Shown here piece by piece: positions 2,478 through 31,668 of a stretch of DNA of 37,585 nt; the first letter of the stretch is position 1, and each line of letters opens with the position of its first letter. The translations under genes were made by a program, and so were the position numbers. The notes beneath the pieces were generated by a model, which searched no databases, was not told where the DNA came from, and was given only the letters and a program-made list of their open reading frames with translations. This DNA is from Actinomycetes bacterium. Lineage in GTDB: Bacteria; Actinomycetota; Acidimicrobiia; Acidimicrobiales; Poriferisodalaceae. The stretch lies in the NCBI GenBank assembly GCA_024228575.1, contig JAAETH010000711.1, positions 1 to 37,585 on the forward strand, in the 5' to 3' direction.

Positions 2478-2488
2478 CGGATCGGCAA

Positions 2489-4564: not shown

Positions 4565-4585
4565 GCACCCACACCATGACCGGTG

Positions 4586-4593
4586 AAGGAGGA
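4586..4593 (+). promoter_or_regulatory. Strong ribosome binding site deciding the epimerase start
   Basis: AAGGAGGA ends 4 bases before the ATG at 4598. It lies inside the possible longer reading from a GTG at 4583, so the shorter start is favoured. Confidence 0.7.
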
Positions 4594-4597
4594 CGAG

Positions 4598-5578
4598 ATG
4601 GCACAAGCAGACCTGCAACCAGTGAATACGGTTCTTGTCACCGGCGCTGCCGGGTTCATCGGCTCACACCTGTGCGAGTTGCTGGCCCGACAGGGCAAGA
4701 CGGTCGTGGGGGTCGACAACTTCGACCCCTACTACGCTCGGCTCGACAAGGAACACAACGTGGCGTGCGTCCGCGCAGCCGGAGGCGATTTTCGCGAGTC
4801 CGACATTCGCAGCTACGGCGACATCGCATCGCTGATCGACGTGACCCGCCCCGAGGCGATCGTCCATCTTGCCGCCAAGGCCGGCGTTCGCAACAGTGTC
4901 AGGTTCCCGCGGCAGTACTTCGAGACGAACCTGCTCGGCACTCAGAACGTGCTGGATTCATGCCGGGCATTGGGCGTCGAGAGGATGGTGCTCGCGTCCA
5001 CCTCGTCGGTATATGGGCGTACCACAACCATCCCGTTCATCGAGAGCGACCCGTGTGTGTCCCCGCTCCACCCGTATGCGGCTTCCAAGCGTTCAACCGA
5101 ACTCCTGGCTGGTACGTACGCCCAGCTATACGGCCTGCAGATAACTGTCATGCGGTTCTTCACCGTCTACGGCGAGCGCGGCCGCCCAGACATGATGCCC
5201 CGTCTGCTGCTCGACTCGATCTCGAACGGAACGAAGGTCGATCTGTACGAAGGGCCCCTGGAACGCGACTGGACCCACGTCAGCGACATCGTCCGCGGCC
5301 TGGCCGCGGCAGTCGACCGTCCCCTCGGATTTGAGGTGCTGAATCTGGGCAGGGGCGAGCCGATTGCGCTCAGGGAGTTCATCGACGAACTGCAGGAGGT
5401 CGCAGGCAAGAAGGCGAACCTCGCCGCGGCCCCGCGGCCCGACTCCGAGATGTTGTCGACGTATGCGAGCACGGACAAGCTCCGCGAACTTCTCGGCGTC
5501 GAATCGGTGGTTCCGGTCCGCGACGGTGTTGCCGCACTGTGGGAGTGGTGGCAGGAGTACTCGACCATGCGCCGCTGA
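4598..5578 (+). CDS. NAD-dependent nucleotide-sugar epimerase (UDP-glucuronate 4-epimerase-like)
   Basis: This is an extended short-chain dehydrogenase/reductase of 326 residues acting on a UDP-sugar in the cytoplasm. The NAD-binding loop is VTGAAGFIGSHL, followed by the VDNFDPYY acidic end of strand beta-2. The catalytic set is present: Ser in ASTSSVYG and the YAASK (YxxxK) pair. RFFTVYGERGRPDM matches the UDP-glucuronate 4-epimerase subgroup (RFFTVYGPWGRPDMA), and DWTHVSDIVRG and NLGRGEPI are the usual substrate-side motifs. Conversion of UDP-GlcA to UDP-GalA is the best guess; a UDP-glucose or UDP-GlcNAc 4-epimerase is possible. It follows the orphan gene by 33 bases and converges on the second glycosyltransferase. 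Confidence 0.85.
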   Translation: MAQADLQPVNTVLVTGAAGFIGSHLCELLARQGKTVVGVDNFDPYYARLDKEHNVACVRAAGGDFRESDIRSYGDIASLIDVTRPEAIVHLAAKAGVRNSVRFPRQYFETNLLGTQNVLDSCRALGVERMVLASTSSVYGRTTTIPFIESDPCVSPLHPYAASKRSTELLAGTYAQLYGLQITVMRFFTVYGERGRPDMMPRLLLDSISNGTKVDLYEGPLERDWTHVSDIVRGLAAAVDRPLGFEVLNLGRGEPIALREFIDELQEVAGKKANLAAAPRPDSEMLSTYASTDKLRELLGVESVVPVRDGVAALWEWWQEYSTMRR

Positions 5579-5614: not shown

Positions 5615-6874
5615 TCATCGGCGCCGCACAATCGGCCCAAAACGCCTGGATCGTGACCCGTGGTCGCCCACGGCCTGCTCCAGAACGTCCTCGAGTTGGT
5701 GTGCCAGGTCGTCGCGGTCGAATCTTGCTCGACCCAACTCCTCGGCGGCCTCGCCCGCGATCGTGCACCACGACGGATCGTGCAGCCGTTCCACGAGATC
5801 GTCCGCGGCCAGTTCGAGATCGGTCGCAGAGACGACCAGTCCGGCGCCGGTTGCCTCGAGCAGCTCGGCCTGCCAGCCGCGATAGTTGACCAGCGTGGGT
5901 GTCCCACTCGCGAGCGCGTCGAACCACTTGTTTGCCGAGTTCGCCCACATCTCGGGCAGGTCTATGAAGATCGAACACGCAACATCGGCCGCTGACAGCG
6001 CACTTACAACCTCGGTCTTCGGCATCGGACCACACATCTTGAGGTTCACGTCCAGCACTCCGAGCCGCAACGCCTCGCTGCGAACGTGCTCCTCCTCCCT
6101 GCCTTCACCCACGAGCAAGAAACGAATCTCGGGATCGCGTCGGTATACGGCTTCGGCGAGTCTCACGAGATATGCCAGATCGTTGACCTGGCCAAATGAT
6201 CCTGCGTACAACACCAGGCGGCGATCGCCGATCCAGGCGTCGCGCCGGCGGAACGCCTCGCCAGCTGTGGGCGAAACCGAGAAGAGGTCGAAGTCGCAGC
6301 TGTTCGGAATCGTGGCCACCCGAGCTGGCTCGTACCCCGTAGCGACGACACCTTCGGCCATCTGAGGCGAAAGCGCCACGACCCGCTCGGAGCGTCGGTA
6401 GGTCACCTTCTCCAACCAGCGAGCGATCACTATTGCGAACCGATTCTTGAGGGCACCAATCGCTATCGGCATCTCCGGCCACAGGTCACGCACCTCGAAC
6501 ACCATCGGAATGCCGTTGCGCCAAGACGCCCATACACCGGGGATCGATATGGTCAACGGCGTGCTGGTCGCGAACACAACGTCACCCCCAAGGGACCGGG
6601 CACGTCGCATCGATAGCAGGGCGAAACGGGCGTACGACCAGATGCGCCTGATCGTGCCCATGTTGTCGGAGTAGATGTTTGCGAGGGCGTGCACGTGTAT
6701 GCCCTCGACCGTCTGCTCGCCCCAACCGCGGTCTGGCCCCTCTATCAGCCGGCTCGACGTCACGACGTGAACCTCGTGTCCGGCAGCGACAAGACGTCGC
6801 GCCATCTCGAACGATCGAGTGCCGCTGCTGCCAGACGGGGTGGCAAAGTACTGATGCAGATAGACGATGCGCAC
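5615..6874 (-). CDS. GT4-family glycosyltransferase (WbuB-like)
   Basis: This is a 419-residue GT-B glycosyltransferase. The N-terminus reads RIVYLHQYFATPSGSSGTRS then FEMARRLVAAGHEVHVVTS, the start typical of the WbuB-type GT4 group. The C-terminal donor domain carries VLYAGSFGQVNDLAYLVRLAE, FLLVGEGREEE and ANKWFDALASGTPTLVNY, which fit the nucleotide-sugar pocket. WbuB-like enzymes commonly transfer FucNAc-type amino sugars to lipid-linked intermediates, which would suit this locus, but specificity is inferred. I chose the GTG at 6874 because AGAGGG lies about 6 bases upstream and the family homology begins exactly there; the ATG at 6958 would add 28 residues without family character. It is divergent from the VanZ-LamG gene. 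Confidence 0.82.
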   Translation of the reverse strand: MRIVYLHQYFATPSGSSGTRSFEMARRLVAAGHEVHVVTSSRLIEGPDRGWGEQTVEGIHVHALANIYSDNMGTIRRIWSYARFALLSMRRARSLGGDVVFATSTPLTISIPGVWASWRNGIPMVFEVRDLWPEMPIAIGALKNRFAIVIARWLEKVTYRRSERVVALSPQMAEGVVATGYEPARVATIPNSCDFDLFSVSPTAGEAFRRRDAWIGDRRLVLYAGSFGQVNDLAYLVRLAEAVYRRDPEIRFLLVGEGREEEHVRSEALRLGVLDVNLKMCGPMPKTEVVSALSAADVACSIFIDLPEMWANSANKWFDALASGTPTLVNYRGWQAELLEATGAGLVVSATDLELAADDLVERLHDPSWCTIAGEAAEELGRARFDRDDLAHQLEDVLEQAVGDHGSRSRRFGPIVRRR

Positions 6875-6947
6875 CGCAGACCCTCTTGATTCGACCGTGT
6901 CCGTTTCGGCTGATTCTGTCGGCCGACGATCCAGACAGTACCACCAA

Positions 6948-6964
6948 GGTGATCTCAAATCACC
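6948..6964. promoter_or_regulatory. Inverted repeat in divergent promoter region
   Basis: GGTGAT-CTCAA-ATCACC is a perfect 6-bp inverted repeat with a 5-base spacer. It sits between the divergent glycosyltransferase and VanZ-LamG genes in a 195-base gap, where an operator would be expected. No regulator is assigned, and a chance palindrome is possible. Confidence 0.3.
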
Positions 6965-7069
6965 ACATAGAGTGGATTACGAACGCGCTGTGCGTTAGAC
7001 TTTTGCGAGAGCCAGCGGCGCTGTGGCACCAAATCCGATGATCGAGGCCGGCTGTTGACGAGGACGTTC

Positions 7070-8146
7070 ATGACCACCTCCACAAGGCCAGCACCGTCGC
7101 CGCCGGATCCGTCGCCGCCGAGGTCGACCGCAACGACCAGGAGTTTGGGAGCAGCAACCCTGGGGTGGTTGCTGGCGGCCATCACCGTGCTCTTGCTCGT
7201 CGAACCACGATCTATCGACTTTCCCCCCGAATTGGCACACCTGGCACTGTTCGCCTGTGGCAGCGCGACCAGTACGGCCTGGCTCTTCGGTCGCTGGCGG
7301 TTGACGAAACTCGTCTCCCTCGTGGCAGTCCTAGGGGTGTTCATTGCCGTGGTCACAGAACTCGCTCAGGCATGGTTCGTCAGTGAACGGCGCGGTCAGC
7401 TCAGCGACTTCTGGGCCGATGTCGCCGGGGTCGGGCTGGGCCTCATCGCTGCGATCGCATGTGTGGCCCTGTTGGGGGAGCGTGGCAGGCATCTCGCTGC
7501 CGTATCGACGTGGATAGCGCTGGTAACCCTGCTGGGGTCGGTGGTTGTTTCGGACCCGCTCGGCAAGCCCGCTATCGACTGCGGAGACCACAACCCCGAC
7601 TCGGCCGACACACTCGCCGAACCCGCCTGGAGCTGGACCGCGGACGACGACGTTGGGAGAGGTGAGCCCTCCCTTGCTCCCGAGATGATCTGTCTCGTGG
7701 GACAAGAGGAATCCTTCACAGTCGTCGCGATCGCGGCGTCGAACGATCTCGAGCAGACGGGACCAACCCGGATCGTCACATCGTCCGTCGGCTACCAGAG
7801 TGCAGATATCAACTTCCACCTCGGTCAGGAAGGCACCGCATTGAGTGTGCGTATACGGTCCGGCAACCACGGGATCGACAAGACCCTGGTCTCCGACGTG
7901 TTCACCGATACCGAGCCACACACGATCGCCGTGCGCTTCGATCACGGTGATGTGACCGTCGTGGTCGATGGTGAAGCCGCCACCCACTTCAACATCGACG
8001 ACAGCCTCGCCAGGTGGGAGGTCGAGTACCCCATCATCGTCGGCGACGAATTCGGGGGCGATCGCACATTCCTCGGTCATGTCGAGGTCGTCGAGATCCA
8101 CGCACGAGCACTGAACGACGACGAACTCGCGTCATGGTCTCGATGA
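7070..8146 (+). CDS. VanZ-like membrane domain fused to a LamG/concanavalin-like domain
   Basis: The protein has 358 residues. Residues about 25-165 hold four hydrophobic segments with a VanZ-like core (VFIAVVTELAQAWFVSERRGQLSDFWADVAGVGLG: a charged FxxxRxxxxxDxxxNxxG-type loop, with Asn replaced by Val here). Residues about 180-355 are a beta-rich segment ending GEFGGDRTFLGHVEVVEIHARALNDDELAS, the classic end of LamG/laminin-G-like lectin folds, probably outside the cell. The ATG at 7070 has GAGG about 6 bases upstream; a TTG at 7055 is possible. VanZ proteins occur in many cell-envelope polysaccharide loci, but their biochemical role is poorly known. The stop overlaps the SGNH hydrolase start as ATGA, so the two are translated together. 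Confidence 0.75.
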   Translation: MTTSTRPAPSPPDPSPPRSTATTRSLGAATLGWLLAAITVLLLVEPRSIDFPPELAHLALFACGSATSTAWLFGRWRLTKLVSLVAVLGVFIAVVTELAQAWFVSERRGQLSDFWADVAGVGLGLIAAIACVALLGERGRHLAAVSTWIALVTLLGSVVVSDPLGKPAIDCGDHNPDSADTLAEPAWSWTADDDVGRGEPSLAPEMICLVGQEESFTVVAIAASNDLEQTGPTRIVTSSVGYQSADINFHLGQEGTALSVRIRSGNHGIDKTLVSDVFTDTEPHTIAVRFDHGDVTVVVDGEAATHFNIDDSLARWEVEYPIIVGDEFGGDRTFLGHVEVVEIHARALNDDELASWSR

Positions 8147-9222
8147 CCCATTCCCCGAAATTCCCCGTCCAAGGGGGGCCTTTTCGCTGGCGCGGTGCCG
8201 CGGCCCTGCACGATGCCGGGGCCGATGTCCGACCGGACCGGCTCGACCCCAACATCTCGAGGCTCTTGGGCGATGGACTCCGTGCCAGAGGCGCCCAAAG
8301 CGCCGGGGTCCGCCTCAGTGCTCGCACCGACGCTGCGTCCCTGTCGCTGACCCTCGGGTGTTCACCACCCTCCGAGGGCCCGCCGCCGACACTGGCGGCC
8401 ACGGTGAACGGCCGTGTCGCGTACGTCGGGGAAGCCTTCGGGAATGTTCGCGTGGACCTCCAGAAGGCCCTGGGGTCGAGCCGCCCAGCCGATGTCGATC
8501 TGTGGTTGCCCCACAACTGCTCGACAGCACTCTCTGGCTCCATCGTTTGTCCCGACGGCTCGCAGACCACTGCCGACGATCGAGATCTGTTCAGATGGAC
8601 CGTGTATGGCTCGTCGATCACCCAGGCCGTGCACGCTTCATCACCGGTCTCGGGATGGGCCTCGAGGGTCGCTCTCGAAAGGAACTGGGATCTGACGAAC
8701 CTCGGCTTCGCTTCTGAGGCGATGCTCGACCCACTGGTTGCGAGACAGATTGCGGCCACCGCGACAGACCTCGTCACGGTGTGCGCCGGCATCAATCCCC
8801 ACACCGCTGGATCGATGTCGTCAGGTGTCTTTCGCAGCTTGTTGGCGGGGTTCATCACCACCATTCGCGACGGTCACCCCACGATCCCGATCGTCGTGGT
8901 GTCGCCCATCATCTGTCCCGATCGCGAAGATTCTCCATCCCAGCCCCGCGCACTGCCGACGATGGGACGACGAGCACTGGCGCGCATGCCCTGGGCCAAC
9001 TCACGGAACCTCGTCGGCCCGACGCTCGCGTCGCTGCGGGCCGACGTCCACGATGTAGTCGACGCGCTGAACGAGACAGATCAGGCTCTGACCGCCATCG
9101 ACGGTACGAGGCTGCTCGGCCGTGCCGACGCGGCCCATCTGGGTGATGGTCTTCACCCAGACGACGACGGTCATCGGCTCATGGCCGAACGTTTCCTCGA
9201 CCTTGTGGCCGACCCTCGCTGA
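8143..9222 (+). CDS. SGNH/GDSL-type hydrolase or acyltransferase (SsfX3-like)
   Basis: This 359-residue protein has a beta-rich N-terminal domain (about residues 1-145, with the DVDLWLP motif resembling the GxDLY/SsfX3 N-terminal domain) and a C-terminal SGNH domain. The nucleophile Ser is in YGSSITQ (block I), Gly in NLGF (block II), Asn in CAGIN (block III), and the Asp/His pair in DGLHPDDDGH (block V). Such enzymes remove or transfer O-acyl groups on sugars; SsfX3, a relative, transfers salicylyl in a tetracycline pathway. No signal peptide is seen. The ATG at 8143 overlaps the previous stop (ATGA); an in-frame ATG at 8134 is also possible. It ends 5 bases from the end of the convergent PKS gene. 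Acylation or deacylation of the local glycan is my inference. Confidence 0.75.
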   Translation: MTHSPKFPVQGGPFRWRGAAALHDAGADVRPDRLDPNISRLLGDGLRARGAQSAGVRLSARTDAASLSLTLGCSPPSEGPPPTLAATVNGRVAYVGEAFGNVRVDLQKALGSSRPADVDLWLPHNCSTALSGSIVCPDGSQTTADDRDLFRWTVYGSSITQAVHASSPVSGWASRVALERNWDLTNLGFASEAMLDPLVARQIAATATDLVTVCAGINPHTAGSMSSGVFRSLLAGFITTIRDGHPTIPIVVVSPIICPDREDSPSQPRALPTMGRRALARMPWANSRNLVGPTLASLRADVHDVVDALNETDQALTAIDGTRLLGRADAAHLGDGLHPDDDGHRLMAERFLDLVADPR

Positions 9223-9227
9223 ATGCT

Positions 9228-12200
9228 TCAGCTCGAGGTGTCCACCGAACCGGCCACCGCGTCGATCGCAACACGGAGTTCGCCGGCCAAGGACTCGACG
9301 AGTGGTTCCGAGAGACGGGCGGTGGGGTACACAAGTGTCACGCCGACCCTCTTGCCATCGACGGCTGCCATGACCGCGATGTCGTGGTCGCGTGGGTTGT
9401 CCGGATGGTTCCCGTCACCCAACGGTTCGTCGACCACTTCCACCGCCTGCGGAGCCGAGGATTCGATCGGACGCCCGACGTAGTTGAAGAGCACCCTCGG
9501 TCGGGGCCGGGTCGTCCCCTCAGAAGGTCGTTGATAGCGCAGAACGTCGAACGTCCAGGCGCGATCGATAATCGAACGGAGGGCCTCTACCCTCTCGGGG
9601 GTGCTGACCGGGGAGGCGTCGAGCCAGACCGGCGAGTACGAAAGAAAGAACCCGACGGTCCGCGACAGATCGATGCCGGGAATCAGCCGGCGTCCATGTC
9701 CGATGACATCGACCCCGACCGTGGGAGATCCAGTCCAAGATCGGAGGGCGTCACCGAGGGCGAGCAGGATGAGTTCGTCGACGCGCCCGACCCCACTCTT
9801 GAGGAGTGCGCCCGACGTCTCCTCGTCGAGCCACATGTGTGTGTCAGAAGCCAGCAGGTTCGTGTTCGGGGCGCGGGTGTCGCCCGGCCAGTTCACCTCG
9901 GTGACCTCCAGCGCGTCCCACCTCAACACGTCGGTGTCGGCTTCTTCTGATGTGGCCAACTCGTCGAGAACGCTGGGCCAAACCGAGAAGGGGAGTGTCG
10001 GTCGCGCCAGCGAGTTGGGGTCGCCGGTCGCCAACAGAAGGTCCAACTCGTCGACGAGGGAAAGCAAGGACAGGCGATCGCTGACGAGGTGATGGAGGCC
10101 GACGAAGACTCGCTGATCTCCATCGTCGGTCTCGACAAGGCTGAACCTCGCCACCGGTCCGTCCGTTATGTCGAACTCGTCCTGCCAGCCCGCAGCGAGG
10201 GTTTCTAGTTCACTCGAGGCCACGTTCTCGACAGCATGAACGGTGGTCGATCCTCCTGCGTCGGCGTCGACAAACTGGGCCCATCCGGGGGGTTCATCGG
10301 TGGGGCGGATCCGTGTGCGCAAGGCGTCGTGTCGTTCGACCAGCACACCAACTGCTTCCTCGATCCGAGACCATTCGAGACGGCCCAGCGGAGCAAGCCA
10401 GGCACAGACGTTGAAGCGACTCGGGTGCGGAGAACCTCGTTCGAGGAAACGCCGTTGTGCGGGGGAGAGCTTCTGCCACCCGACCACACTGCGTTGAGTT
10501 TCATCCGCTCCGCCGAGGTCGTCGGCTGCGAGGCGGAGCAATTCGGCCACGAGGTCGGCCAGCCTCGTATTGTCGAAGATCAGATCGAGCGGGACCTCAG
10601 AACCGACGTGATGCCTCAACCTGTCGGCCATCCGAGCCACCTGAAGAGAGTCGCCGCCGAGATCGAAGAAGTCATCGTCTGGGGAGATCTCGTCGACTCC
10701 CAACAAGGTTGACCAAATCGCTGCGACACGTTCTTCCAACGACCCCTCACCGTCGATGTTGTCGACTCCGTCGTCTTGTGCGAGAGCTTGCTCGAGGAAC
10801 GGACTGATGACGGTCTTGTCCGCCTCGACCCGCTTGCGCAGGTCGGTGGTGGAAACAAACAGTGTGGCGCAATCGGCGGTGAGAGCTCGCCCGAAGAGCC
10901 GCACTCCGTCCAGGGGGGTGAACGAGTGAAGCTCGTCCATCAACTTGATGCCCGACTTGTAACGGTCGGCAAAGTCCTGGGCGACTCGAACCGACATGCC
11001 GATGTCGACCCAATCGTCCCACGCAACCGTCACCACACGATCAGCGTTGAACACATCTGTTTCGGCCAGCGCCTCGACGAAGGAGTTGGACGTCACGTAG
11101 CCCACTTGACCAAACCGGTTGTGGTACAGCTGTGAGGCAATCGAACTGGACAACAAGACGAAGTCGAGACTTCGCTGCCCACACACGTCTCGGAGTGCGC
11201 CGGCCAACACGACCGCCCCATAAACCTTGGCGGCAATCGCCGAATGGGCAGCAGCAGGCGAACGGCGATGGATCGCACCCTCGTCGTCGGCGACAGCGGC
11301 AGCCACGATGACACCATCGATCGGGCCGAGTTTTTGCTCGACGTCCGATATGGCCTGTGTCATCGCGACCTGGTCGGTCGCGTCGACGGCAAACACTTCG
11401 ACACCCGGAGACGATTGCTCGATCGCTGCCAGTCGTTCGAGGCGACGTGTTGTCTCGGGGTTTTCGGGGTCGGGAGAGGGGCGCCCCGATCGGCTGGTCA
11501 GGGCCAGTCGTGCTCCGTGGTTCTCGGCCAGATGACGACCGAGCGACAGGCCGACACCACCGAGGCCTCCCACGATCAGGTAGGTGCCGCCGTCGCGCAC
11601 GGGTAGGTCTTGATCGAGCGGCTGGGGGAGGGTCAAGGGGTCGAGGTCGTGCACCCATCGGTGACCTGAGCGGATCGCCACGAGCCTGTGTTCGTCCTCT
11701 GCGGAGGTGAGGGTTCGGCCGAGACAACCGAGCGTATTGTCGGTGAGGTCTTGCCCGATCGCGACATCGACCAGTCGACACGAGATCCCCGCGTACTCGA
11801 GGGGGATGACCTTGACCGGACCACCCAGTGCCGCCGACGTGGGGACCACCGTTTCGCCGCCCATGACGTCGTGGGCTCCGGAACACACGACATCTATCTG
11901 CACTCGATGATGCTGGGATGTAGCCGCCAAGGCCCTGGCCAGAGACAACAGGGTGTTGACACCTCGATCGAGGAGGGAACCGGTGGTGTCGATGTCGATC
12001 GGCGGCGCGGCCTCGTGTATGGACCACAGATGGACGACGCGCCGAGGGCTCCTGCCCTGCTCGGCCAGTTCGCCGACAACCGATGCGAGGCCGTCATCGT
12101 CGGCAGCGGCGACGATGTCGACCTCGAGATCGGTCGAGTTCCCGAGCGTCACTACATGAACGTCATGGTTCCTGGCCCGGAGGTCCTCGATGATCGCGGC

Positions 12201-15032
12201 ACAACGATCGTCATGTGTCGCCAGCACGAGGACACAACCGGTTTCGCCAGCGGTCGGGGTATCGCGCCGCCACGATCGGGCGTAACACCAGCGGTCGATG
12301 TCGTCTCGTTCTGTGGGCACCGCCACCGCTTGGGGTGTGTCCGATTCGTCGGGCAGTGCGAGCACATGGCGGGCTTCGGGCAACCACAGTCGCTTGTGAT
12401 CGAGAACACTCGTAGGAGCCGGAACCCTGGTTCTGGTGACGGGGCCGTGTACCAGCTCCCAGTCGACTTCGAGGCCACTCGCCCAGATCGAACCCAGGGC
12501 CTCGAGAGCCACGACATCGCCTGGTCGTCGATCGCGATCGGTTCCGATCACCGAGACCGTTGTCGGAGCCGAACCAAACGAGGTGTGCGACATGGCGAAG
12601 GCCCCAAGCGCGCGCCCGGGACCCACCTCGACCAGCAACTTCGTGGCGTGATCGCATGCAATCACGTCGAGGCATTTGTCGAACCTCACCGCACTACGAA
12701 TCTGCCCACCCCAGAATTGCGGATCGACCGCCTGAGCATCGGTGAGCCAGCCTCCCGTCACATTGCTGAGCATCGGGATCGACGGGGCGGACAGGTCGAC
12801 CGACGCGAGGACATCCGTGAAACTCCGCGCCGCTTCCTCCATGGCCTGCGTGTGGAACGCGTGAGAGGTCGCCAGTGTGGCGAAGGTGATGCCCTTCTTC
12901 TCCAGCGAGTTGCAGAACCCCTCGACAGCGGCGGCGGTGCCGCCGGCGACCGACGCGCCAGACGCGTTCGCAACCGCAACCTCCACACCATCGGTCAGAT
13001 GGGTCGAAAGTTCGTCAGCGCTGAGCCGGGTCGCGACCATCACGCCAGGATCCATCGATTGCATCAGACGGCCGCGGGCCGCTATCACCCGCACGGCGTC
13101 TCCCAGCGAAAGCACCCCCGCCAGAACCGCTGCAGCGAACTCGCCGACGCTGTGTCCCAGGAGCACATCTGGGGTCTGGCCCCACGCCTGAAGCTGCCGG
13201 GCCATGGCGTACTGCACGCTGAAAAGGGCAGGCTGGGTGATCTCGGTTTCGCGGAGCCGAATAGTTGCTTCGGTATCGTCGCGGTCGGCGAGAAGGAGGG
13301 GCCGAAGATCGATCCGTTCCCTGTCGTTCAGCAGGGTGAGAACGTCATCGAGTGCATTCGTGAATTCATCGATGCGACCGTGGGCACCCCCCATTCCGGG
13401 GAACTGGGCTCCTTGTCCCGAGAACATCCAGACCGAGCCCGAACGGTTGGCGGCTTCGAAAGCCTTGGCCCTCGTGCCGTGTGTGACGTCTGAGGCACCG
13501 GGGTCGACAACCTGGATCCGCCGGTGACCAAGTGTGGCGCGCCCCACCTCGAGAACCTCGAGCTCGCTGCGGCCCAAGACCCCACGCTTGGCCCACTCGA
13601 GTGCCTCGGACGCTGTCTCATCGGCACCGACAGACGAGCTGGCCGACGTCATCAGAACATACGGCCGATCCAACGGCCTGTTCGTCGAGCTGATGGCTGG
13701 CGCCTCCTCGACGATGACGTGAGCGTTGGTGCCACCGATGCCGAACGAACTCACCCCGGCGCGACGAAGGTCGGTGCCCTCCGAATCCCATTCGACGAGT
13801 CGGTCGGCGACGATGAAGGGACTGTTGGCGAAGTCGATGGCCTCGTTCGGTGCCTCGAAATGAAGGCTGGCGGGGATCTTCGCCTCTCGCACCGCGAGCG
13901 CTGCCTTGATGAGGCCGGTGACACCCGCGGCGGCATCGGTGTGACCTGTGTTGGTCTTCACCGAACCGATGTAGCAGAAGCCGTTGCGATCGGTCGTCTC
14001 GCGAAAGGCCTTTGTGAGCGCTGCGACCTCGACCGGATCGCCGAGTTTGGTACCCGTACCGTGGGTCTCGACGTAGGTGACATCGTCGCCCGTCACGCCG
14101 GCGACAGCCTGGGCGAGGGCGATGACCTCGGCTTGACCCGCAACCGACGGTGCCGAGTAGCTGACCTTGTTCGAACCGTCGTTGTTGATGGCAGAACCGG
14201 CTATGACCGCATGAACCGTGTCGCCGTCGGCAAGTGCGTCGCTGAGGCGTTTCAGGACGACAACTCCGGCACCCTGACCCAACGTCGTACCGTTTGCGTT
14301 TTCGTCGAAGGCCCTGCAATAGCCATCCTCGCTGAGGATCATGCCCTGCTGGTAGAAGTAGCCGACCCCTTGACGCAGGTTCACGCTGACCCCACCGGCC
14401 AGAGCCATGGTGCAATGGTGGTCGAGCAGATGTTGGGCCGCCAGGTGCACGGCGACGAGCGATGTCGAACATGCCGACTGGACATTGAGAGCAGGCCCGG
14501 TCAGGTTGAGACGGTGTGAAATTCGCGTCGCCAAAAAGTCGCGGTCGTTGCCGATCATCTGATCGAACGCGGTCAGCGAATCGGTTGCGTCAGGACGCCC
14601 GAGCAGGGTCGCGTGGTCTATCGGATTGCAGCCGGCGAAAACGCCGACCTCGCCCGGCACTTCGAAGGGGTTGTACCCCGCATGTTCCAGAGCGCGGTAC
14701 GCCACCTCGAGTAGTACGCGAGCCTGAGGATCGGTCATCGATGCTTCGCGGGGCGACATTGCGAACAACTCCGCGTCGAACTCGTCGAAATGTGGGAGCC
14801 TTGTGCCGCGGCGAACAAAGTTGTCCCGGCCGTAGACCGATGCCGGTATCCCGAGTTCGTCGAGTTCGTCGTCTGTGAACTCGTGGAGGCAGTCGCGTCC
14901 ATCGAGCAGGTTCTGCCAGAACGTGTCGAGGTCGGGTGCCTCGGGATATCGCCCGGCCAGGCCGACGATGGCGACCTTGTCGGGTTCATCGAGGCCGTCG
15001 AGGTCGAGGGCTTCAGTATCTGGGCTGTGCAT
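9228..15032 (-). CDS. Type I PKS module KS-AT-KR-ACP with a C-terminal epimerization/condensation-like domain
   Basis: The protein has 1934 residues. KS spans about 16-445 (Cys188 in QSACSTS, His324 in VETHGTGT, His364 in NTGHTDA). AT spans 534-870 (Ser628 in GHSVGE; HAFH at 724-727 predicts malonyl-CoA). A structural KR half lies at about 915-1140. The catalytic KR spans 1145-1340 (GGLGGVG; Lys1269, Ser near 1297, Tyr1312, Asn1316; Asp pair at 1249-1250 weakly suggests a B-type, D-hydroxy product). ACP spans 1432-1502 (Ser1462 in LGGDSL). A condensation-superfamily domain spans 1520-1930 and looks most like an epimerization domain (HHLVSDR, GHGRR, SRTVGFF, FNYVGR). There is no DH, ER or TE. 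It would add one malonate unit and reduce the ketone. The ATG at 15032 falls 17 bases after the NRPS stop; the longer reading runs into that gene. A phosphopantetheinyl transferase must act in trans. Confidence 0.92.
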   Translation of the reverse strand: MHSPDTEALDLDGLDEPDKVAIVGLAGRYPEAPDLDTFWQNLLDGRDCLHEFTDDELDELGIPASVYGRDNFVRRGTRLPHFDEFDAELFAMSPREASMTDPQARVLLEVAYRALEHAGYNPFEVPGEVGVFAGCNPIDHATLLGRPDATDSLTAFDQMIGNDRDFLATRISHRLNLTGPALNVQSACSTSLVAVHLAAQHLLDHHCTMALAGGVSVNLRQGVGYFYQQGMILSEDGYCRAFDENANGTTLGQGAGVVVLKRLSDALADGDTVHAVIAGSAINNDGSNKVSYSAPSVAGQAEVIALAQAVAGVTGDDVTYVETHGTGTKLGDPVEVAALTKAFRETTDRNGFCYIGSVKTNTGHTDAAAGVTGLIKAALAVREAKIPASLHFEAPNEAIDFANSPFIVADRLVEWDSEGTDLRRAGVSSFGIGGTNAHVIVEEAPAISSTNRPLDRPYVLMTSASSSVGADETASEALEWAKRGVLGRSELEVLEVGRATLGHRRIQVVDPGASDVTHGTRAKAFEAANRSGSVWMFSGQGAQFPGMGGAHGRIDEFTNALDDVLTLLNDRERIDLRPLLLADRDDTEATIRLRETEITQPALFSVQYAMARQLQAWGQTPDVLLGHSVGEFAAAVLAGVLSLGDAVRVIAARGRLMQSMDPGVMVATRLSADELSTHLTDGVEVAVANASGASVAGGTAAAVEGFCNSLEKKGITFATLATSHAFHTQAMEEAARSFTDVLASVDLSAPSIPMLSNVTGGWLTDAQAVDPQFWGGQIRSAVRFDKCLDVIACDHATKLLVEVGPGRALGAFAMSHTSFGSAPTTVSVIGTDRDRRPGDVVALEALGSIWASGLEVDWELVHGPVTRTRVPAPTSVLDHKRLWLPEARHVLALPDESDTPQAVAVPTERDDIDRWCYARSWRRDTPTAGETGCVLVLATHDDRCAAIIEDLRARNHDVHVVTLGNSTDLEVDIVAAADDDGLASVVGELAEQGRSPRRVVHLWSIHEAAPPIDIDTTGSLLDRGVNTLLSLARALAATSQHHRVQIDVVCSGAHDVMGGETVVPTSAALGGPVKVIPLEYAGISCRLVDVAIGQDLTDNTLGCLGRTLTSAEDEHRLVAIRSGHRWVHDLDPLTLPQPLDQDLPVRDGGTYLIVGGLGGVGLSLGRHLAENHGARLALTSRSGRPSPDPENPETTRRLERLAAIEQSSPGVEVFAVDATDQVAMTQAISDVEQKLGPIDGVIVAAAVADDEGAIHRRSPAAAHSAIAAKVYGAVVLAGALRDVCGQRSLDFVLLSSSIASQLYHNRFGQVGYVTSNSFVEALAETDVFNADRVVTVAWDDWVDIGMSVRVAQDFADRYKSGIKLMDELHSFTPLDGVRLFGRALTADCATLFVSTTDLRKRVEADKTVISPFLEQALAQDDGVDNIDGEGSLEERVAAIWSTLLGVDEISPDDDFFDLGGDSLQVARMADRLRHHVGSEVPLDLIFDNTRLADLVAELLRLAADDLGGADETQRSVVGWQKLSPAQRRFLERGSPHPSRFNVCAWLAPLGRLEWSRIEEAVGVLVERHDALRTRIRPTDEPPGWAQFVDADAGGSTTVHAVENVASSELETLAAGWQDEFDITDGPVARFSLVETDDGDQRVFVGLHHLVSDRLSLLSLVDELDLLLATGDPNSLARPTLPFSVWPSVLDELATSEEADTDVLRWDALEVTEVNWPGDTRAPNTNLLASDTHMWLDEETSGALLKSGVGRVDELILLALGDALRSWTGSPTVGVDVIGHGRRLIPGIDLSRTVGFFLSYSPVWLDASPVSTPERVEALRSIIDRAWTFDVLRYQRPSEGTTRPRPRVLFNYVGRPIESSAPQAVEVVDEPLGDGNHPDNPRDHDIAVMAAVDGKRVGVTLVYPTARLSEPLVESLAGELRVAIDAVAGSVDTSS

Positions 15033-15049: not shown

Positions 15050-18304
<3,255 letters not shown>

Positions 18305-18323: not shown

Positions 18324-21287
18324 CTAGCTGACAGCGAGCGTCGAGGTCACTGTGATCGTGTCGTTGACCACGGCGGCGATCCTCTCGACGGTGGCGTCGG
18401 AAAGTGTTGCTCCAGAGGGCAGGCAGATTCCACGTTCGAACAATCGGTCAGAACACCGGCCACCGATCTGTTCGGCACCGGCGAACACCGGCTGCTGATG
18501 CATTGGCTTCCACGCCCGACGTGCCTCGATGCCGTGGGCGTTGAGCGCATCACACACCAGTTCTGGTGCAATTCCGTCCGGGAGTTCGGCCACATTCAGC
18601 CAGGAGTTGGGGCGATCGGTGACCCCGGTTGGGAACCATGAAACCTCGATCTCCGACCGGTAGAACGCGCTGATCTCGCTGCGACGTTCGATGATGCTCT
18701 CGAGCCTGCCCATCTGTGCCACTCCGACAGCGGCCAGCAGGTTCGACATCCTGTAGTTGAAGCCCCGCTCGACGTGCTCGAAGTGTGGTAAGGGCTCGCG
18801 GGCCTGGGTCGACAGCTTGCGAGCATGTTCGATCTGGTCGATATCGCCGAGCAGGGCACCACCACCTCCTGTCGTGATGATCTTGTTTCCATTGAAGCTG
18901 AGAACGCCGAAGTCTCCGTGGGCGCCCGCATGTCGACCACAGGCAAGGCTGCCGAGGGCTTCAGCGGCATCCTGGATGAGGGGGATGCCGTAGCTTTCGC
19001 ACAGTGGCTTGATGGTGTCGTAGTCGGCGCAGAAACCGTAGAGATCGACGGTGACGACAGCGGCCGGTAGTCGCCCCATCCGCTCGCGCGAGCTGAGGAA
19101 TTCGGCCAACAGGACCGGATCGAGGTTTCCCGTCCTGGCGTCGGAATCACAAAAGATCGGGGTTGCGCCCGTTTGAAGGACAGCAAATGCCGAGGCTGCA
19201 AACGTGGCGGTCTGAACCACAACCTCGTCGCCGGGCCCAATACCGTGAAGATGAAGAGCAAGGTGTAGCCCAGCGGAGCCACTGCTGAGAACAAGCGCAG
19301 CGGGCACATCGAGGTAGTCGACCAGGTGCCGTTCGAACTCGACAACACTTGGCCCTGTGGGAGCAATCCACCCCGAGTCGAACGCATCGAGCAGCGAGCT
19401 GCGCTCGGCCCCGGTCATGTCGGGAGGAGAGAGGAAGGTCCGAACTGGCGACGTGATCGGAGTTGGGCGGATGGGTTTGTACTCCGCGGCATCGCGGAGC
19501 TCGGCTCTGAGCAGGTCATCGTCGGCGATGAGAGCGAGATCGCATATGTCGGACCAGCCGACTGGGGGACAGGTTGCATGCCACATCAGGCCGGTCTCGT
19601 TCAGCACCACCGGCTCCTCGACACCGGTAAGCCTCTCGGTCATCTTCTCGCCGGGCCGCAACCCTGTGATCTCGATGTCGAGGTTCTTGCCAGAACTCTC
19701 GATCATCTGACGGGCCACGTCCACTATCTTCACCGGCTTGCCCATCTCGAGGATCATCACCTCGCCGGTTCGCCCGATGTCGCCGGCCGCGATGACGAGG
19801 CCAACAGCCTCCTCGACGGTCATGAAGTACCGCTCGATCTCGGGATGCGTCACCGTGAGAGGCTCGTCCATCTCGATCTGTTTGGCGAACGCGTCGAGGA
19901 CCGAACCCCTGCTGCCAAGGACATTCCCAAAGCGAACCGAGAGGTACTGACGGTCGGGATTCTGCGACTTGTTCGCCGTGAGACGTTCTGCGAGGCGTTT
20001 GGTGAACCCGAGAACGCTGCTGGCGTCGGCAGCCTTGTCGGTACTCACGTTGATGAACCGCATCGCCTCGTGAGCAGACGCCTCTTCGAGGAGGTTGTGG
20101 GTGCCGCCAACATTGGTCTTGAAACCTTCACCGGGTGCAGCCTCGAGCAGGGTCAGATGTTTGAGCGCTGCTGTGTGGAAGACGATCTCTGGATGCCAGG
20201 TACCGAAGACAGCGGCCATGCGGTCGCGGTCGCGGATGTCGGCGACTATGAGCGAATCGTCGTCCAGCAGAGCACGCCCTTCCATCGAGAGCTGCAGAGC
20301 ATGCAGTGCCGATTCGTCGCGATCGAGCATCAGGACCTTGCGTGGATCGAGACGCGCAAGTTGCCGACACAGCTCTGACCCGATCGATCCGCCGGCACCC
20401 GTCACGAGGATGGTCTTCCCAGCGACATAGCGGCCGCACTGATGCAGGTCGAGATCGACCTGCTTTCGCCCGAGCAAGTCGGCCGGCGTCACGTCGCGGA
20501 TGTCGGAAGCCGAGACAACCCCGCCGCGAGACATCACCTCGGTCATCGTCGGAAGAACGCTGACGTGCAGCCCGAACGACCGCCCGAGATCGGTCAATTC
20601 GCGGATCAGGCCCGAGCGTGCCGACGGGATCGCTATCAGCAGGTGTTTGGCAGAGTGTTCCTCGACGAGGGCGCCGAGCTTCTCACGCCCACCAGCGACA
20701 GCGATGCCCCCAATCTTGCGACCGTGCACACGTTCTGCGTCGTCGAGCATCGCCACGACGCGATATCGGCCGATCTCCTGGGAAAGAGCCTCGGCGATGT
20801 GTGCTCCACCGAAGCCGGCGCCGAAGATGATCATCGGCTCACCCTTGGCCCTGAGAAGGCTGTTCATCTTGTCGCGATGTGCACGCCATGCGACGCGGGC
20901 AATCGTCTGCGCCGCAAAGGCCACGAGGGCGGAGCAGACACACAGGAGTATGGCGCGCCCGAACCCGAGAGCGGTCGCAACAAGGCCGGCCACGAGAGCA
21001 CCGGCCAGGACAGGAACCGTCAACCTCAGCGTTCCGGTGGGTGACCCGAGCGCCCAGATCGAATACAAGCCCACACGGCGACCGACCAGCACCGACACAC
21101 ATCCCGCGGCCAGACCCACGACCAGACGGCCTGCGATCGACTCAGAACCTGCCTCGAGTCCCAACGCCGTCGGCAGGATCAGAACCACCACGATCCAGAC
21201 CAACAAGTCGAGAAGGGCCACCAAGCCGTCGCGATGTCCCCTGACCCAACCCATCTCAGAATCGAGCCGGTTCACCAGATTGTGCAT
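18324..21287 (-). CDS. Fusion: membrane-bound NDP-sugar 4,6-dehydratase (PglF/WbpM-like) + DegT/DnrJ aminotransferase (PglE-like)
   Basis: The single protein of about 987 residues joins two consecutive bacillosamine-pathway enzymes. Residues about 20-135 are four membrane helices. Residues 150-280 are a first Rossmann-like domain. Residues 290-580 are the FlaA1/WbpM-type dehydratase (GAGGSIGSEL at 297; STDK at 415-418; Lys430 in GFTKR; RFGNVLGSRGSV; GLRPGEKMTE). Residues about 618-985 are a full-length DegT aminotransferase (SSGSAGLHLAL; QDAAEALG; PLP Lys802 in SFNGNK; RGFNYRMSNLLAA). It would turn UDP-GlcNAc into the 4-keto-6-deoxy sugar and then UDP-4-amino-4,6-dideoxy-HexNAc. Both parts match the usual lengths of the separate enzymes. 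The start is uncertain: ATG 21287 is used, but GTG 21341 or 21314 and ATG 21254 are possible. It is first in the operon with NRPS and PKS. Confidence 0.9.
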   Translation of the reverse strand: MHNLVNRLDSEMGWVRGHRDGLVALLDLLVWIVVVLILPTALGLEAGSESIAGRLVVGLAAGCVSVLVGRRVGLYSIWALGSPTGTLRLTVPVLAGALVAGLVATALGFGRAILLCVCSALVAFAAQTIARVAWRAHRDKMNSLLRAKGEPMIIFGAGFGGAHIAEALSQEIGRYRVVAMLDDAERVHGRKIGGIAVAGGREKLGALVEEHSAKHLLIAIPSARSGLIRELTDLGRSFGLHVSVLPTMTEVMSRGGVVSASDIRDVTPADLLGRKQVDLDLHQCGRYVAGKTILVTGAGGSIGSELCRQLARLDPRKVLMLDRDESALHALQLSMEGRALLDDDSLIVADIRDRDRMAAVFGTWHPEIVFHTAALKHLTLLEAAPGEGFKTNVGGTHNLLEEASAHEAMRFINVSTDKAADASSVLGFTKRLAERLTANKSQNPDRQYLSVRFGNVLGSRGSVLDAFAKQIEMDEPLTVTHPEIERYFMTVEEAVGLVIAAGDIGRTGEVMILEMGKPVKIVDVARQMIESSGKNLDIEITGLRPGEKMTERLTGVEEPVVLNETGLMWHATCPPVGWSDICDLALIADDDLLRAELRDAAEYKPIRPTPITSPVRTFLSPPDMTGAERSSLLDAFDSGWIAPTGPSVVEFERHLVDYLDVPAALVLSSGSAGLHLALHLHGIGPGDEVVVQTATFAASAFAVLQTGATPIFCDSDARTGNLDPVLLAEFLSSRERMGRLPAAVVTVDLYGFCADYDTIKPLCESYGIPLIQDAAEALGSLACGRHAGAHGDFGVLSFNGNKIITTGGGGALLGDIDQIEHARKLSTQAREPLPHFEHVERGFNYRMSNLLAAVGVAQMGRLESIIERRSEISAFYRSEIEVSWFPTGVTDRPNSWLNVAELPDGIAPELVCDALNAHGIEARRAWKPMHQQPVFAGAEQIGGRCSDRLFERGICLPSGATLSDATVERIAAVVNDTITVTSTLAVS

Positions 21288-21390
21288 ATGTGTGCGTACG
21301 TGTGTTGTCCTCACCGCTCTCCGTGATATCACCCACAACACAACTGCGCAACAATTCAGGACAACGCAACGGCCGAATCGTCACGCCCAA

Positions 21391-21409: not shown

Positions 21410-21526
21410 CCCGACTTTTGCCTGGCGTGCAAATCTCACTTAGCGTAGTCTTGACATGTGTGTGTGGGTGTTGAAGCAACACCGGCCCACCAGAAGACTC
21501 CCACCTCACATACAGAGAATGGAACC

Positions 21527-22189
21527 ATGGTAGAAACGATGACGAGACACGTGACAGGTCCTGACGACGCTGCCTCGGTCCGGCCGGTGCCGATCATCCC
21601 AACACCGTGGTGGAAACGCACATTTGACATCGTGGCCGCCATCGCAGCTCTCGTGCTGATGGCGCCCGTCGCTGCGGTCACGGCGGCTGCGATCAGGCTT
21701 CTCATGGGCAATCCTGTGATATTTCGCCAGGAGCGCGCCGGCCTCGGTGGCGAGACTTTCTGCATACTCAAGTTCCGAACACTGCTCGACTCCACCGACG
21801 CGGCCGGCAACCCGTTGCCCGACTCAGAGCGCCGTCATTGGTTGGGCGATCTCCTCCGCAAGACGAGCCTCGATGAGATCCCGACCTTCGTGAACGTCAT
21901 CAGGGGCGACATGAGTGTGGTCGGACCACGACCACTCTTCGTGCGCTATCTCGAGCGCTACTCCGACGAGCAGGCGAAACGACATCAGGTACGGCCCGGC
22001 CTCACCGGGCTCGCCCAGACCAGTGGGCGAAATGACGTCTCGTGGGACGAACGATTCGAGCTCGATCTCACCTACATCAACTCGATGTCCCTGCTGCTCG
22101 ACCTACACATCGTTGCCCGCACGTTCAAGACGGTGCTTCGAGCCGACGGGGCAGATGGTTCTGTCACAATCGGCGAGTTCGGCATCTGA
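21527..22189 (+). CDS. Monotopic phosphoglycosyl transferase (PglC/WecA-replacing initiating sugar transferase)
   Basis: This 220-residue membrane enzyme transfers a phospho-sugar from a UDP-sugar to undecaprenyl phosphate, the first step of a lipid-linked glycan. One re-entrant hydrophobic helix spans about 34-58, preceded by WWKRTFDI. The catalytic core follows: IFRQERAGLGG, FCILKFRT, LRKTSLDEIPTFVNVIRGDM with the Asp116-Glu117 dyad, SVVGPRPL, and RPGLTGLAQTSGR. The small size without the extra N-terminal helices of WbaP places it with PglC. UDP-diNAc-bacillosamine is the PglC substrate, which fits the divergent dehydratase-aminotransferase fusion. I chose the ATG at 21527 because the conserved part follows and GAGAATGG lies just upstream; an ATG at 21458 would add 23 residues. 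Confidence 0.9.
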   Translation: MVETMTRHVTGPDDAASVRPVPIIPTPWWKRTFDIVAAIAALVLMAPVAAVTAAAIRLLMGNPVIFRQERAGLGGETFCILKFRTLLDSTDAAGNPLPDSERRHWLGDLLRKTSLDEIPTFVNVIRGDMSVVGPRPLFVRYLERYSDEQAKRHQVRPGLTGLAQTSGRNDVSWDERFELDLTYINSMSLLLDLHIVARTFKTVLRADGADGSVTIGEFGI

Positions 22190-29172: not shown

Positions 29173-31668
29173 ATGGCACCGAAGCACCTCAAGCGGGCCC
29201 AGCGGCCATCGAACCAGCGTTCGCGAGAGATCAGCGAGCGGGTCGGTCACCTCCTCGACGACCTCCGAGATGGCGGCGAACGACGGGTCCGCAAGCTCGC
29301 CGCCGAGTACGACAGCTGGAATGGTCCGATCGTGGTCGATTCGGACACGATCGAAAGGGCGCGGGCGACACTCGACCGCGGACTCGTCGACGACATCGAG
29401 GCCGCACACCACAACATCAGGGCCTTCGCGACCGCGCAGCGAGCGACCATTCGACCGCTCTCCACCGAGATCGCTCCTGGCATCGTCGGAGGCCACCACC
29501 TACTGCCGGTGAACGTGGCCGGCTGCTACATCCCGGCCGGTCGGTTCGCCCACATCGCTTCGGCGCTGATGAGTGTCACCACGGCTTCGGTGGCCGGAGT
29601 CGACACCGTGATCGCCACATCCCCGGCACGGCCCGAGCGCGCGGGAGTACACCCCGCGATCCTGGTGGCAGCCGACATGGCCGGTGCCGACATCATCCTC
29701 GGTCTTGGTGGGGTACAGGCCATCGCAGCGCTGGCCCAAGGCCTGTTCACGGGCCGGCCCGCAGACATGATCGTCGGCCCCGGCAACGCCCTGGTCGCCG
29801 AAGCGAAACGTCAGCTCTTCGGCCAGATCGGCATCGATGTCGTCGCCGGACCCACCGAATCGATGATCGCTGCGGACCACACTGCCGATCCGAACACCGT
29901 GGCGATCGACCTGGTAGGCCAGGCCGAACACGGCCCCGACTCGCCGGTCTGGCTCGTCACCACCAGCGAGAAGCTGGCCGCCGAGGTCGCAGAGATCGTG
30001 CCCTGCATCGCAGAAGAGCTGCCCGAGCCGAACCGCACTTCGGCGATGACGGCCTGGGAGAACCACGGCGAGATCGTGGTGGTCGACACCAGAGAAGAGG
30101 CAGCCGAGACGTGTGACCGGTACGCCCCTGAACACCTTCAGGTGCTGGCAGCCGACCTCGACTGGTGGAAGCAGCGGCTGAGCAACTACGGCTCGCTATT
30201 CCTCGGGCCCGAGACCACGGTCACCTTCGGAGACAAGAGCGCCGGCCCCAATCACATCCTGCCCACCGGGCGGGCCTCCCGCTACACCGGCGGACTCAAT
30301 GTTCTGACCTTCCTGCGCACCCCGACCTGGCAGCAGATGAGCGCGGATGCCGCTGCCCGGCAGGGTGCATTGTCCGGGCGGATCTCGCGGTTCGAAGGTA
30401 TGGAGGGCCACGCCCGCTCCGCCGACGCCCGTGTCGATATCGGTGCCCAACCCGAAGGCGAGCTGCCACACCTACATCTCGACCTCACTTCACAGGAACC
30501 ACTCCCTCAGGCCGCCATAGATCGGGCCAACGAACTGATGCGGAGCGGCCAGCTGTTCCGTTATGGCGAGAGTTGCGACGGGGGAACCGACGCAGCGCTC
30601 CTCGAGGAGGAGTTCGCCGCGCTGGTCGGGCGCCGATATTGTGTCGCTTTCAACAGCTGCGGAGCATCGATGGCCGCAGCGCTGATGGCGGCAGGAGTGC
30701 AGCGCGACGAGCCCGTCCTGATGAACACCTTCACGCTCGCCCCGGTACCAGGGGCGATCGCCCACGCCGGCGCCGAGCCCGTATTTGTCGGCATCACGCC
30801 CGATTATCACATCGACCTGGAAGACCTTCGGCTGGCCGCTGAGCGCACTGACGCCCGCTGGCTCTTGTTGTCGTACATGCGCGGCCACATACCAGACCTC
30901 GATGTTGTGATGCAGGTCTGCGACGCACTCGGCATCACCGTCATCGAGGACTGCGCCCACAGCATGGGTGCGGGCTGGCGCGGGCGCGCCACCGGGACGT
31001 TCGGACTCGCTGGCTGCTTCAGCACGCAGAGCTTCAAACACGTCAACTCTGGCGAGGGCGGATTGCTGGTCACCGACGACGATGACGTCGCGGCGCGTGC
31101 GGTGCTGCTGTCGGGTTCCTACATGCTCTACGGTCAACACGGAGCAACACCCGATGCCAGCGTGTTCGAGCACCACCGCCTCACAACACCAAACCTCTCC
31201 ATGCGAATGTCGGCCCTGGCCGCTGCACTGGTTCGCCCTCAACTGGCAGAACTTGCCGATCGCGCCCGACGGTGGAACGAGCGTTATGTCGAACTCGCCG
31301 GCCTGCTCGATGCGGACCCTCGCATCACGGTTCCCACCCGTCACCGCGATGAACACTACGTGGCGTCGTCGATCCAGTTCTCCGTCGACAGTTCGCAGAT
31401 GGCCGACTGGATCGACATCGCTGGATCTCACGGCGTTCACGTGAAGTGGTTCGGCAGGGGCGAACCGGTGGGCTTCACGAGCAACTTCGATCACTGGCGT
31501 TTTGCCGCCGAACAGACCGTTCAGCGACAGGGTCTGCAGCGAACGCAGCACGTGCTCAGCGGTCTCTGCGACATGCGTATTCCATTGGCCATGACCCGGT
31601 CCGATGCAGCCGATATCGCAAGCATCATCCGCGGCGCCCTCGATCTGACCGAGACGGCGAGTCGATGA
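29173..31668 (+). CDS. Fusion: histidinol-dehydrogenase-like (HpsN-like) oxidoreductase + DegT/DnrJ aminotransferase
   Basis: The 831-residue protein contains two complete enzymes. Residues 1-430 are HisD-like, closest in style to sulfopropanediol dehydrogenase HpsN (LPVNVAGCYIPAGRFAHIASA; NVLTFLRTPTWQQ). Catalytic Glu320-His321 (YAPEHLQ) and the zinc ligands Gln250, His253 (GQAEHG), Asp354 (GDKSAGPNH) and His413 (EGH) are all present. Residues about 440-825 are a DegT-family aminotransferase with PLP Lys622 (STQSFKHVNSGEGG), VIEDCAHSMGA and NLSMRMSALAAA. It would oxidise an alcohol with NAD, and the second half would aminate or deaminate a carbonyl compound. It is probably not histidine biosynthesis, since no his genes are near. 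The ATG at 29173 has GAGG about 9 bases upstream. Its stop overlaps the MttB-family start (ATGA). Confidence 0.88.
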   Translation: MAPKHLKRAQRPSNQRSREISERVGHLLDDLRDGGERRVRKLAAEYDSWNGPIVVDSDTIERARATLDRGLVDDIEAAHHNIRAFATAQRATIRPLSTEIAPGIVGGHHLLPVNVAGCYIPAGRFAHIASALMSVTTASVAGVDTVIATSPARPERAGVHPAILVAADMAGADIILGLGGVQAIAALAQGLFTGRPADMIVGPGNALVAEAKRQLFGQIGIDVVAGPTESMIAADHTADPNTVAIDLVGQAEHGPDSPVWLVTTSEKLAAEVAEIVPCIAEELPEPNRTSAMTAWENHGEIVVVDTREEAAETCDRYAPEHLQVLAADLDWWKQRLSNYGSLFLGPETTVTFGDKSAGPNHILPTGRASRYTGGLNVLTFLRTPTWQQMSADAAARQGALSGRISRFEGMEGHARSADARVDIGAQPEGELPHLHLDLTSQEPLPQAAIDRANELMRSGQLFRYGESCDGGTDAALLEEEFAALVGRRYCVAFNSCGASMAAALMAAGVQRDEPVLMNTFTLAPVPGAIAHAGAEPVFVGITPDYHIDLEDLRLAAERTDARWLLLSYMRGHIPDLDVVMQVCDALGITVIEDCAHSMGAGWRGRATGTFGLAGCFSTQSFKHVNSGEGGLLVTDDDDVAARAVLLSGSYMLYGQHGATPDASVFEHHRLTTPNLSMRMSALAAALVRPQLAELADRARRWNERYVELAGLLDADPRITVPTRHRDEHYVASSIQFSVDSSQMADWIDIAGSHGVHVKWFGRGEPVGFTSNFDHWRFAAEQTVQRQGLQRTQHVLSGLCDMRIPLAMTRSDAADIASIIRGALDLTETASR

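Follow-up and report, generated by a model that had tools for sequence, protein, structure and literature searches.

A single gene in a 37,585-nucleotide stretch of DNA from an Actinomycetes bacterium of the Poriferisodalaceae (assembly GCA_024228575.1, contig JAAETH010000711.1, positions 1 to 37,585; the window, hereafter) appears to encode two consecutive enzymes of nucleotide-sugar synthesis. Sequence comparison and a structure model support the assignment of its one 987-residue chain as a PglF-type 4,6-dehydratase of uridine diphosphate-N-acetylglucosamine (UDP-GlcNAc) joined to a PglE-type 4-aminotransferase. The gene (18324-21287, minus strand; protein P0001) stands at the head of an operon-like run that continues with a nonribosomal peptide synthetase (NRPS) and a polyketide synthase (PKS). 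The prediction that the fused enzyme yields UDP-4-amino-4,6-dideoxy-GlcNAc is well supported; as a further proposal, the NRPS-PKS line may acylate the 4-amine of that sugar. We give the explanation as a whole, in which such acylation takes the place of acetylation, a little less than an even chance of being correct.

Positions 18324 to 21287 translate on the minus strand into 987 residues free of stops, and the open frame extends to a GTG at 21341. Pfam places Polysacc_synt_2 at residues 293-559 (19611-20411; 6e-92) and DegT_DnrJ_EryC1 (PF01041) at residues 626-974 (18366-19412; 5.5e-79, 266.4 bits), both well above cut-off, and CoA_binding_3 falls marginally below its own (24.8 against 25 bits). 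The architecture of N-terminal helices, linker domain and Polysacc_synt_2 is that of PglF and WbpM; the membrane-helix region at residues 18-133 (20889-21236) is marked by hydropathy and forms helices in the structure model. The dehydratase half has the NAD-binding GxxGxxG motif as GAGGSIGSE (297-305), STDK at 415-418 (TDK at 416-418) and the YxxxK-type lysine at 430. The aminotransferase half has the DegT fold, with the lysine that binds pyridoxal 5'-phosphate (PLP), Lys802, in a GNK motif (NGNKIITT). Alignment matches these residues to T395, D396 and K397 of PglF and K184 of PglE, numbered as in the titles of the Protein Data Bank (PDB) entries. A sequence-only reading of this DNA had described a membrane protein joining the two enzyme types, with STDK, Lys430 and Lys802 present; its coordinates, strand and residue numbers proved right, and each of these features was found where it had been placed.

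The two halves are named with some reserve. M405 of PglF, at the position of the tyrosine of short-chain dehydrogenases/reductases, is Leu426 here, and leucine is also found in G040, G198 and G788, the three other relatives read at this position; for this reason the dehydratase half is called PglF-like. The top NCBIfam match of the aminotransferase half, TIGR04181 (LegC family), scores 309.9 bits, under the cut-off of 420, so this half is called PglE-like and is not filed as a LegC equivalog. Both departures would also suit an enzyme with another substrate or epimer (a C5-inverted product, for example, or another nucleoside diphosphate hexose) instead of a functional PglF/PglE pair. We hold this to be quite unlikely. 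The closest solved relatives by sequence are PglE (1o61, 4ztc) and PglF (5bju, where it is named WlaL) of Campylobacter jejuni, the domains of the AlphaFold2 model (mean predicted local distance difference test, pLDDT, 70.2; predicted template modelling score 0.44) match the PglF and PglE structures by fold, and the large membrane-anchored architecture resembles that of PglF.

Between the two enzymes lies a linker (residues 556-615; 19443-19622), modelled with low confidence (pLDDT under 50 at residues 552-614), so that direct passage of the 4-keto intermediate from one site to the other, proposed in the sequence-only reading, is no more than conceivable. Its GC content at the three codon positions, 0.68/0.47/0.75, equals in pattern that of the flanking domains, 0.66/0.42/0.76 and 0.66/0.48/0.71, which makes a frameshift or noncoding read-through unlikely. 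The sequence-only reading had singled out residues 580 to 620 as the place where a stop or frameshift might lie; judged from the assembled sequence, the linker is stop-free and of coding type. The draft state of the assembly (960 contigs) leaves a little room for an artefact of assembly or sequencing, or for a chain with one dead half, but the open frame, the coding composition of the linker, the conserved motifs of both halves and an independent fusion in another genome make this extremely improbable. Within the limits of sequence evidence, the fusion is genuine.

The independent fusion occurs in G040, an assembly from a different family of the same order, where both domains share one 992-residue frame, 44% identical to the window protein over residues 23-970. 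Such chains, which the earlier reading had proposed could be sought by domain architecture, exist and are rare. Both domains were matched in 2 of 61 relatives (E up to 1e-60), in 2 of 397 genomes of the order and in 1 of 396 genomes drawn from the phylum (E up to 1e-140 and the best two candidates per genome in the latter two). The three samples overlap; the first two counts include the genome of the window, which is also the single match in the third. In all searches over 248 or more genomes the best 2 to 7 candidates were scored per genome, and fused copies of low similarity could therefore be missed. Of 72,556 plasmids searched by tblastn (E up to 1e-60), 299 records match and none reaches 80% query coverage at a single site; the top record, a Priestia plasmid, reaches 75% over three segments, and its annotation shows the aminotransferase alone, as a gene by itself. 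The phage search (E up to 1e-20) gave 6 matching records, none with 80% coverage, and the 7 pattern matches in IMG/VR include no relative. A genome-contig search limited to close relatives returned 6 loci, in which tblastn gave no chain with both domains.

Several candidates for further fusions were rejected. Long open frames in G038, G216 and G045 have no aminotransferase match, and in G043 the two genes lie in different frames. A match to residues 195-700 on contig C263 of G788 was considered as a third fusion; there a stop closes the frame behind the dehydratase, and the remaining alignment is due to chance.

The dehydratase and aminotransferase genes are adjacent yet separate in G009, G043 and G060; fusions probably arose from such pairs. 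Among 21 aminotransferase domains placed in a tree, those of the window and G040 stand apart, and a common clade is rejected (approximately unbiased test, p 6.5e-6), which implies two or more separate origins of the fusion. Resolution of the dehydratase tree is poor, with the window row an unplaced long branch and a clade of window and G040 weakly disfavoured (p 0.038). Clades for testing were named once the trees had been inspected. Rows were excluded if shorter than 230 residues (dehydratase) or 280 residues (aminotransferase), over the E-value limit, stop-containing or contained in another row; a partial aminotransferase at the end of contig C169 of G198 is one row excluded.

Downstream of the fused gene, and on the same strand, lie the NRPS (15050-18304) and the PKS (9228-15032). 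The spacing is operon-like: the ATG of the NRPS sits 19 bases past the stop of the fused gene, and the PKS starts about 17 bases beyond the NRPS gene if the ATG at 15032, chosen within a frame open from 15173, is its start. By Pfam the NRPS consists of Condensation, AMP-binding and PP-binding, that is, one module of condensation (C), adenylation (A) and peptidyl carrier protein (PCP) domains, with HHxxxDG and GGHS present. EntF, which activates serine, is among its better PDB relatives. The A-domain code, read by eye as D V W H I S L I D, is presumably serine-like, as are the codes of G198, G317 and G790, which read likewise with small changes. The PKS carries ketosynthase, acyltransferase, ketoreductase and acyl carrier protein (ACP) domains, followed by a terminal domain of epimerisation type; the acyltransferase motif is HAFH, which points to malonyl specificity. 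No Pfam thioesterase domain was found in the NRPS and PKS proteins.

The terminal domain (9231-10490, minus strand) has as its nearest solved chains the epimerisation domains of PvdL and tyrocidine synthetase. The catalytic glutamate motif of epimerisation domains, EGHGRE, reads IGHGRR here, with isoleucine in place of the glutamate, and HHxxxDG reads HHLVSDR, which sets the domain outside the epimerisation domains proper. Pfam would make it a plain condensation domain, a label we rejected in view of its nearest solved relatives and of the lost glutamate. Eleven terminal domains were compared. All five that are linked to a PKS (window, G198, G333, G317 and G790) lack the glutamate, with I, L, L, S and S in its place, and all five have HHxxSDR; they therefore form a separate line that should not epimerise. 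Four of the other six (L093, L094, L095 and L065) keep EGHGR. The remaining two, both from G788 and both located behind NRPS modules, have IGHGRE and MKHGRD; loss of the glutamate thus occurs outside the PKS-linked group as well. Matches in two genomes of the phylum sample, G437 (two places) and G593, and in G363, from the family of G198, were set aside as domains of another kind, since all four keep EGHGR; those in G437 and G363 follow NRPS modules, and on the 7.5-kb contig of G593 the carrier and the terminal domain alone match their window counterparts. From these sequence features we suggest that the terminal domain of the window may act in chain release.

A link between aminotransferase and NRPS is found in G198, where an uninterrupted 726-residue frame on one contig joins a DegT-type aminotransferase (4.4e-81) to an NRPS C domain (5.7e-30). 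This aminotransferase is 54% identical to that of the window, and in the tree of 21 the two are sisters, with support 97/94. A second G198 contig, reached through its homologue of the terminal domain, begins inside an NRPS and runs through A-PCP, PKS, a glycosyltransferase and a phosphoglycosyl transferase (PGT); identities to the window are 46% for the NRPS, 46% for the PKS, 45% for the glycosyltransferase (window 5615-6958) and 53.5% for the PGT. The two contigs overlap by 126 residues with 7 differences, which fits strain variation. Divergent from the 726-residue frame is the start of a gene that by eye looks PglF-type and may continue on a third contig. One line of aminotransferases, fused to the preceding enzyme in the window and to the NRPS in G198, gives a classical sign that the steps belong to one pathway.

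The sequence-only reading had also placed a PGT divergent from the fused gene, and it is there (21458-22189, plus strand; Bac_transf; the true start may be further in). A PGT accompanies the NRPS-PKS genes in G198, G317 and G790 too. The window PGT is 53.5, 55.2 and 56.3% identical to these three, against 43.7-52.4% to six PGTs found beside aminotransferases without NRPS-PKS. In the window and in these three genomes a PGT always accompanies the NRPS-PKS, as the aminotransferase does not; this would agree with an NRPS-PKS product that joins the glycan later, once the sugar has reached the lipid carrier or the polymer, or that is attached through another amine or a hydroxyl, the fused enzyme supplying the first sugar only. 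The direct aminotransferase-NRPS fusion of G198 argues against this account, which we consider unlikely.

In the pathway that we propose instead, the dehydratase half would convert UDP-GlcNAc to UDP-4-keto-6-deoxy-GlcNAc, with activity and substrate taken from homology to PglF. The aminotransferase half, by homology to PglE, would use PLP and glutamate to turn the 4-keto sugar into UDP-4-amino-4,6-dideoxy-GlcNAc, whose free 4-amine would serve as nucleophile for the NRPS-PKS, in place of PglD-type acetylation or alongside it. The A domain would load a serine-like residue onto the PCP, and the PKS module would add and reduce a malonyl unit to give something like 4-amino-3,5-dihydroxypentanoyl-ACP; the first C domain possibly N-acylates the chain. 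The terminal domain, lacking its glutamate, would release the chain by amide formation with the sugar amine. The PGT would then transfer the acylated amino-sugar phosphate to a polyprenyl carrier, and glycosyltransferases would extend it into a surface glycan. The detailed version, in which N-acylation by the NRPS-PKS with serine and reduced malonate takes place on the nucleotide sugar by way of a former epimerisation domain, and in which the aminotransferase is tied to the dehydratase or to the NRPS according to lineage, is offered tentatively, with a probability that we put clearly below one half.

A simpler account is an ordinary bacillosamine-type pathway with a rare fusion, in which a PglD-like protein encoded elsewhere acetylates the sugar and the NRPS-PKS makes an unrelated small metabolite. 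The sequence-only reading had spoken of bacillosamine-type synthesis, and for the first two steps the term fits; beyond them it is less apt for the window, where no PglD-type protein is found among the 26 frames scanned and the gene heads an NRPS-PKS operon. Several observations nevertheless favour this simpler account and weigh against acylation by the NRPS-PKS. The same genome encodes a PglD_N/hexapeptide protein on contig C509, so that acetylation in trans is possible. The fused locus of G040 has a PglD-type gene downstream, and the 27 kb covered there contain no match to the NRPS or the PKS. The NRPS-PKS-PGT clusters of G317 and G790 have no PglE-type aminotransferase in the stretches covered (38 kb in three pieces and 20 kb, respectively); PglE-type genes (56 and 55%) and PglF-type genes sit on other contigs, the PglE-type gene of G790 near a homologue of the window glycosyltransferase at 5615. 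Beside the PKS, and convergent with it, a GDSL-type hydrolase (8014-9222) could release the chain by hydrolysis. The acylation proposal is further weakened by the reading of the A-domain code by eye, a model of the terminal domain so poor (pLDDT 32.5) that it was not used, the joining of the two G198 contigs by their overlap alone, and the occurrence of the aminotransferase-NRPS fusion in 1 of 248 genomes. Against the ordinary pathway, the C509 gene sits amid non-sugar genes (AMP-binding, CitMHS, Ppx/GppA and others), the NRPS of G198 is fused to the sister of the window aminotransferase, and the PGT travels with the NRPS-PKS in three other genomes. We regard it as a serious alternative, if on balance a doubtful one.

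Other features of the window suggest the setting in which acylation of the sugar would occur. The glycosyltransferase at 5615-6958 (minus strand), whose homologue follows the PKS in G198, has GT4-type Pfam domains. A Wzx-type flippase (Polysacc_synt) is encoded at 1134-2546 (minus strand) and an NAD-dependent sugar epimerase/dehydratase at 4583-5578 (plus strand), and on the strength of the glycosyltransferases, flippase and epimerase the region is taken as a surface-glycan locus. Within 7055-9222 (plus strand), the GDSL lipase is preceded by a frame that has a laminin-G-like domain and, below cut-off, a VanZ match.

In G317 and G790 a protein of about 325 residues without Pfam match is encoded between PGT and NRPS (L067, 14172-15158, minus strand; L070, 16472-17440, minus strand). 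A TauD-type dioxygenase gene lies near the NRPS-PKS (L067, 2875-4972, minus strand; L070, 3821-4783, minus strand), as does, in G317, an acyl-CoA-dehydrogenase-like gene; it is possible that these two kinds of gene tailor the acyl chain. The fused gene of G040 has a divergent asparagine-synthase-type gene upstream and PGT, UDP-sugar dehydrogenase and PglD-type genes downstream (L037, 15145-17223, minus strand; L038, 3177-3914, plus strand), a more ordinary glycan locus than that of the window. Elsewhere in the window's own genome (G000), an unfused PglF-type dehydratase on contig C466 (59510-61108; L002, L049) is followed directly by a Glycos_transf_4 gene.

The window holds a second fusion, at 29173-31668 (plus strand), where a histidinol-dehydrogenase-type domain and a DegT-type aminotransferase share one 831-residue frame adjoining MTTB-type and DAO/GCV_T-type genes. 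Counting its own, 7 genomes among 248 of the order hold near-full-length matches to it (64-100%); one match has an internal stop, and another lacks the first 77 residues. Separate neighbouring matches to its two halves are found in G178, G203, G237 and others.

The first half of the explanation, if true, describes a rare fusion of consecutive nucleotide-sugar enzymes, evolved at least twice, and offers a convenient system in which to study the transfer of an intermediate. The second half, if true, would mean that NRPS-PKS lines build side chains of cell-surface glycans, linking two large fields that seldom meet, and that an epimerisation-type domain has been turned into a release domain using a sugar amine. 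The question lends itself to a direct bench test, since the two parts can be produced independently and their product identified by mass spectrometry.

Taken one by one, the domains all belong to known kinds. In a limited search of the literature, we found no description of a PglF-PglE fusion or of an NRPS that acylates such a sugar nucleotide, nor of a coupling to NRPS-PKS or a PKS ending in an epimerisation-type domain without its glutamate. Lincosamide synthetase, whose NRPS components join an amino acid to an amino sugar by an amide bond, is not known to have a PKS module, a PGT or a terminal domain of epimerisation type. That system serves antibiotic synthesis and is combined with mycothiol-related elements (PMC4351081). 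PglF and PglE of Campylobacter jejuni (PDB 5bju, 4ztc) share with the window protein the catalytic Thr-Asp-Lys, the PLP lysine and, for PglF, the kind of membrane-anchored N-terminal part; in PMC8040287 they are separate proteins, named and added separately. The window differs in having one chain, leucine at the position of Met405 and, among the frames scanned, no PglD beside it. ArnA, too, fuses two enzymes of a 4-amino sugar pathway, a dehydrogenase/decarboxylase and a formyltransferase, where the window joins dehydratase and aminotransferase instead. It is described as the bifunctional enzyme of 4-amino-4-deoxy-L-arabinose addition (PMC12650200). VibH appears in PMC11546977 as a stand-alone NRPS condensation domain. 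The terminal domain of the window lies nearest to the epimerisation branch instead, and it follows a PKS carrier. VibH uses a soluble amine, and the terminal domain resembles it as a Condensation-superfamily domain proposed to do the same.

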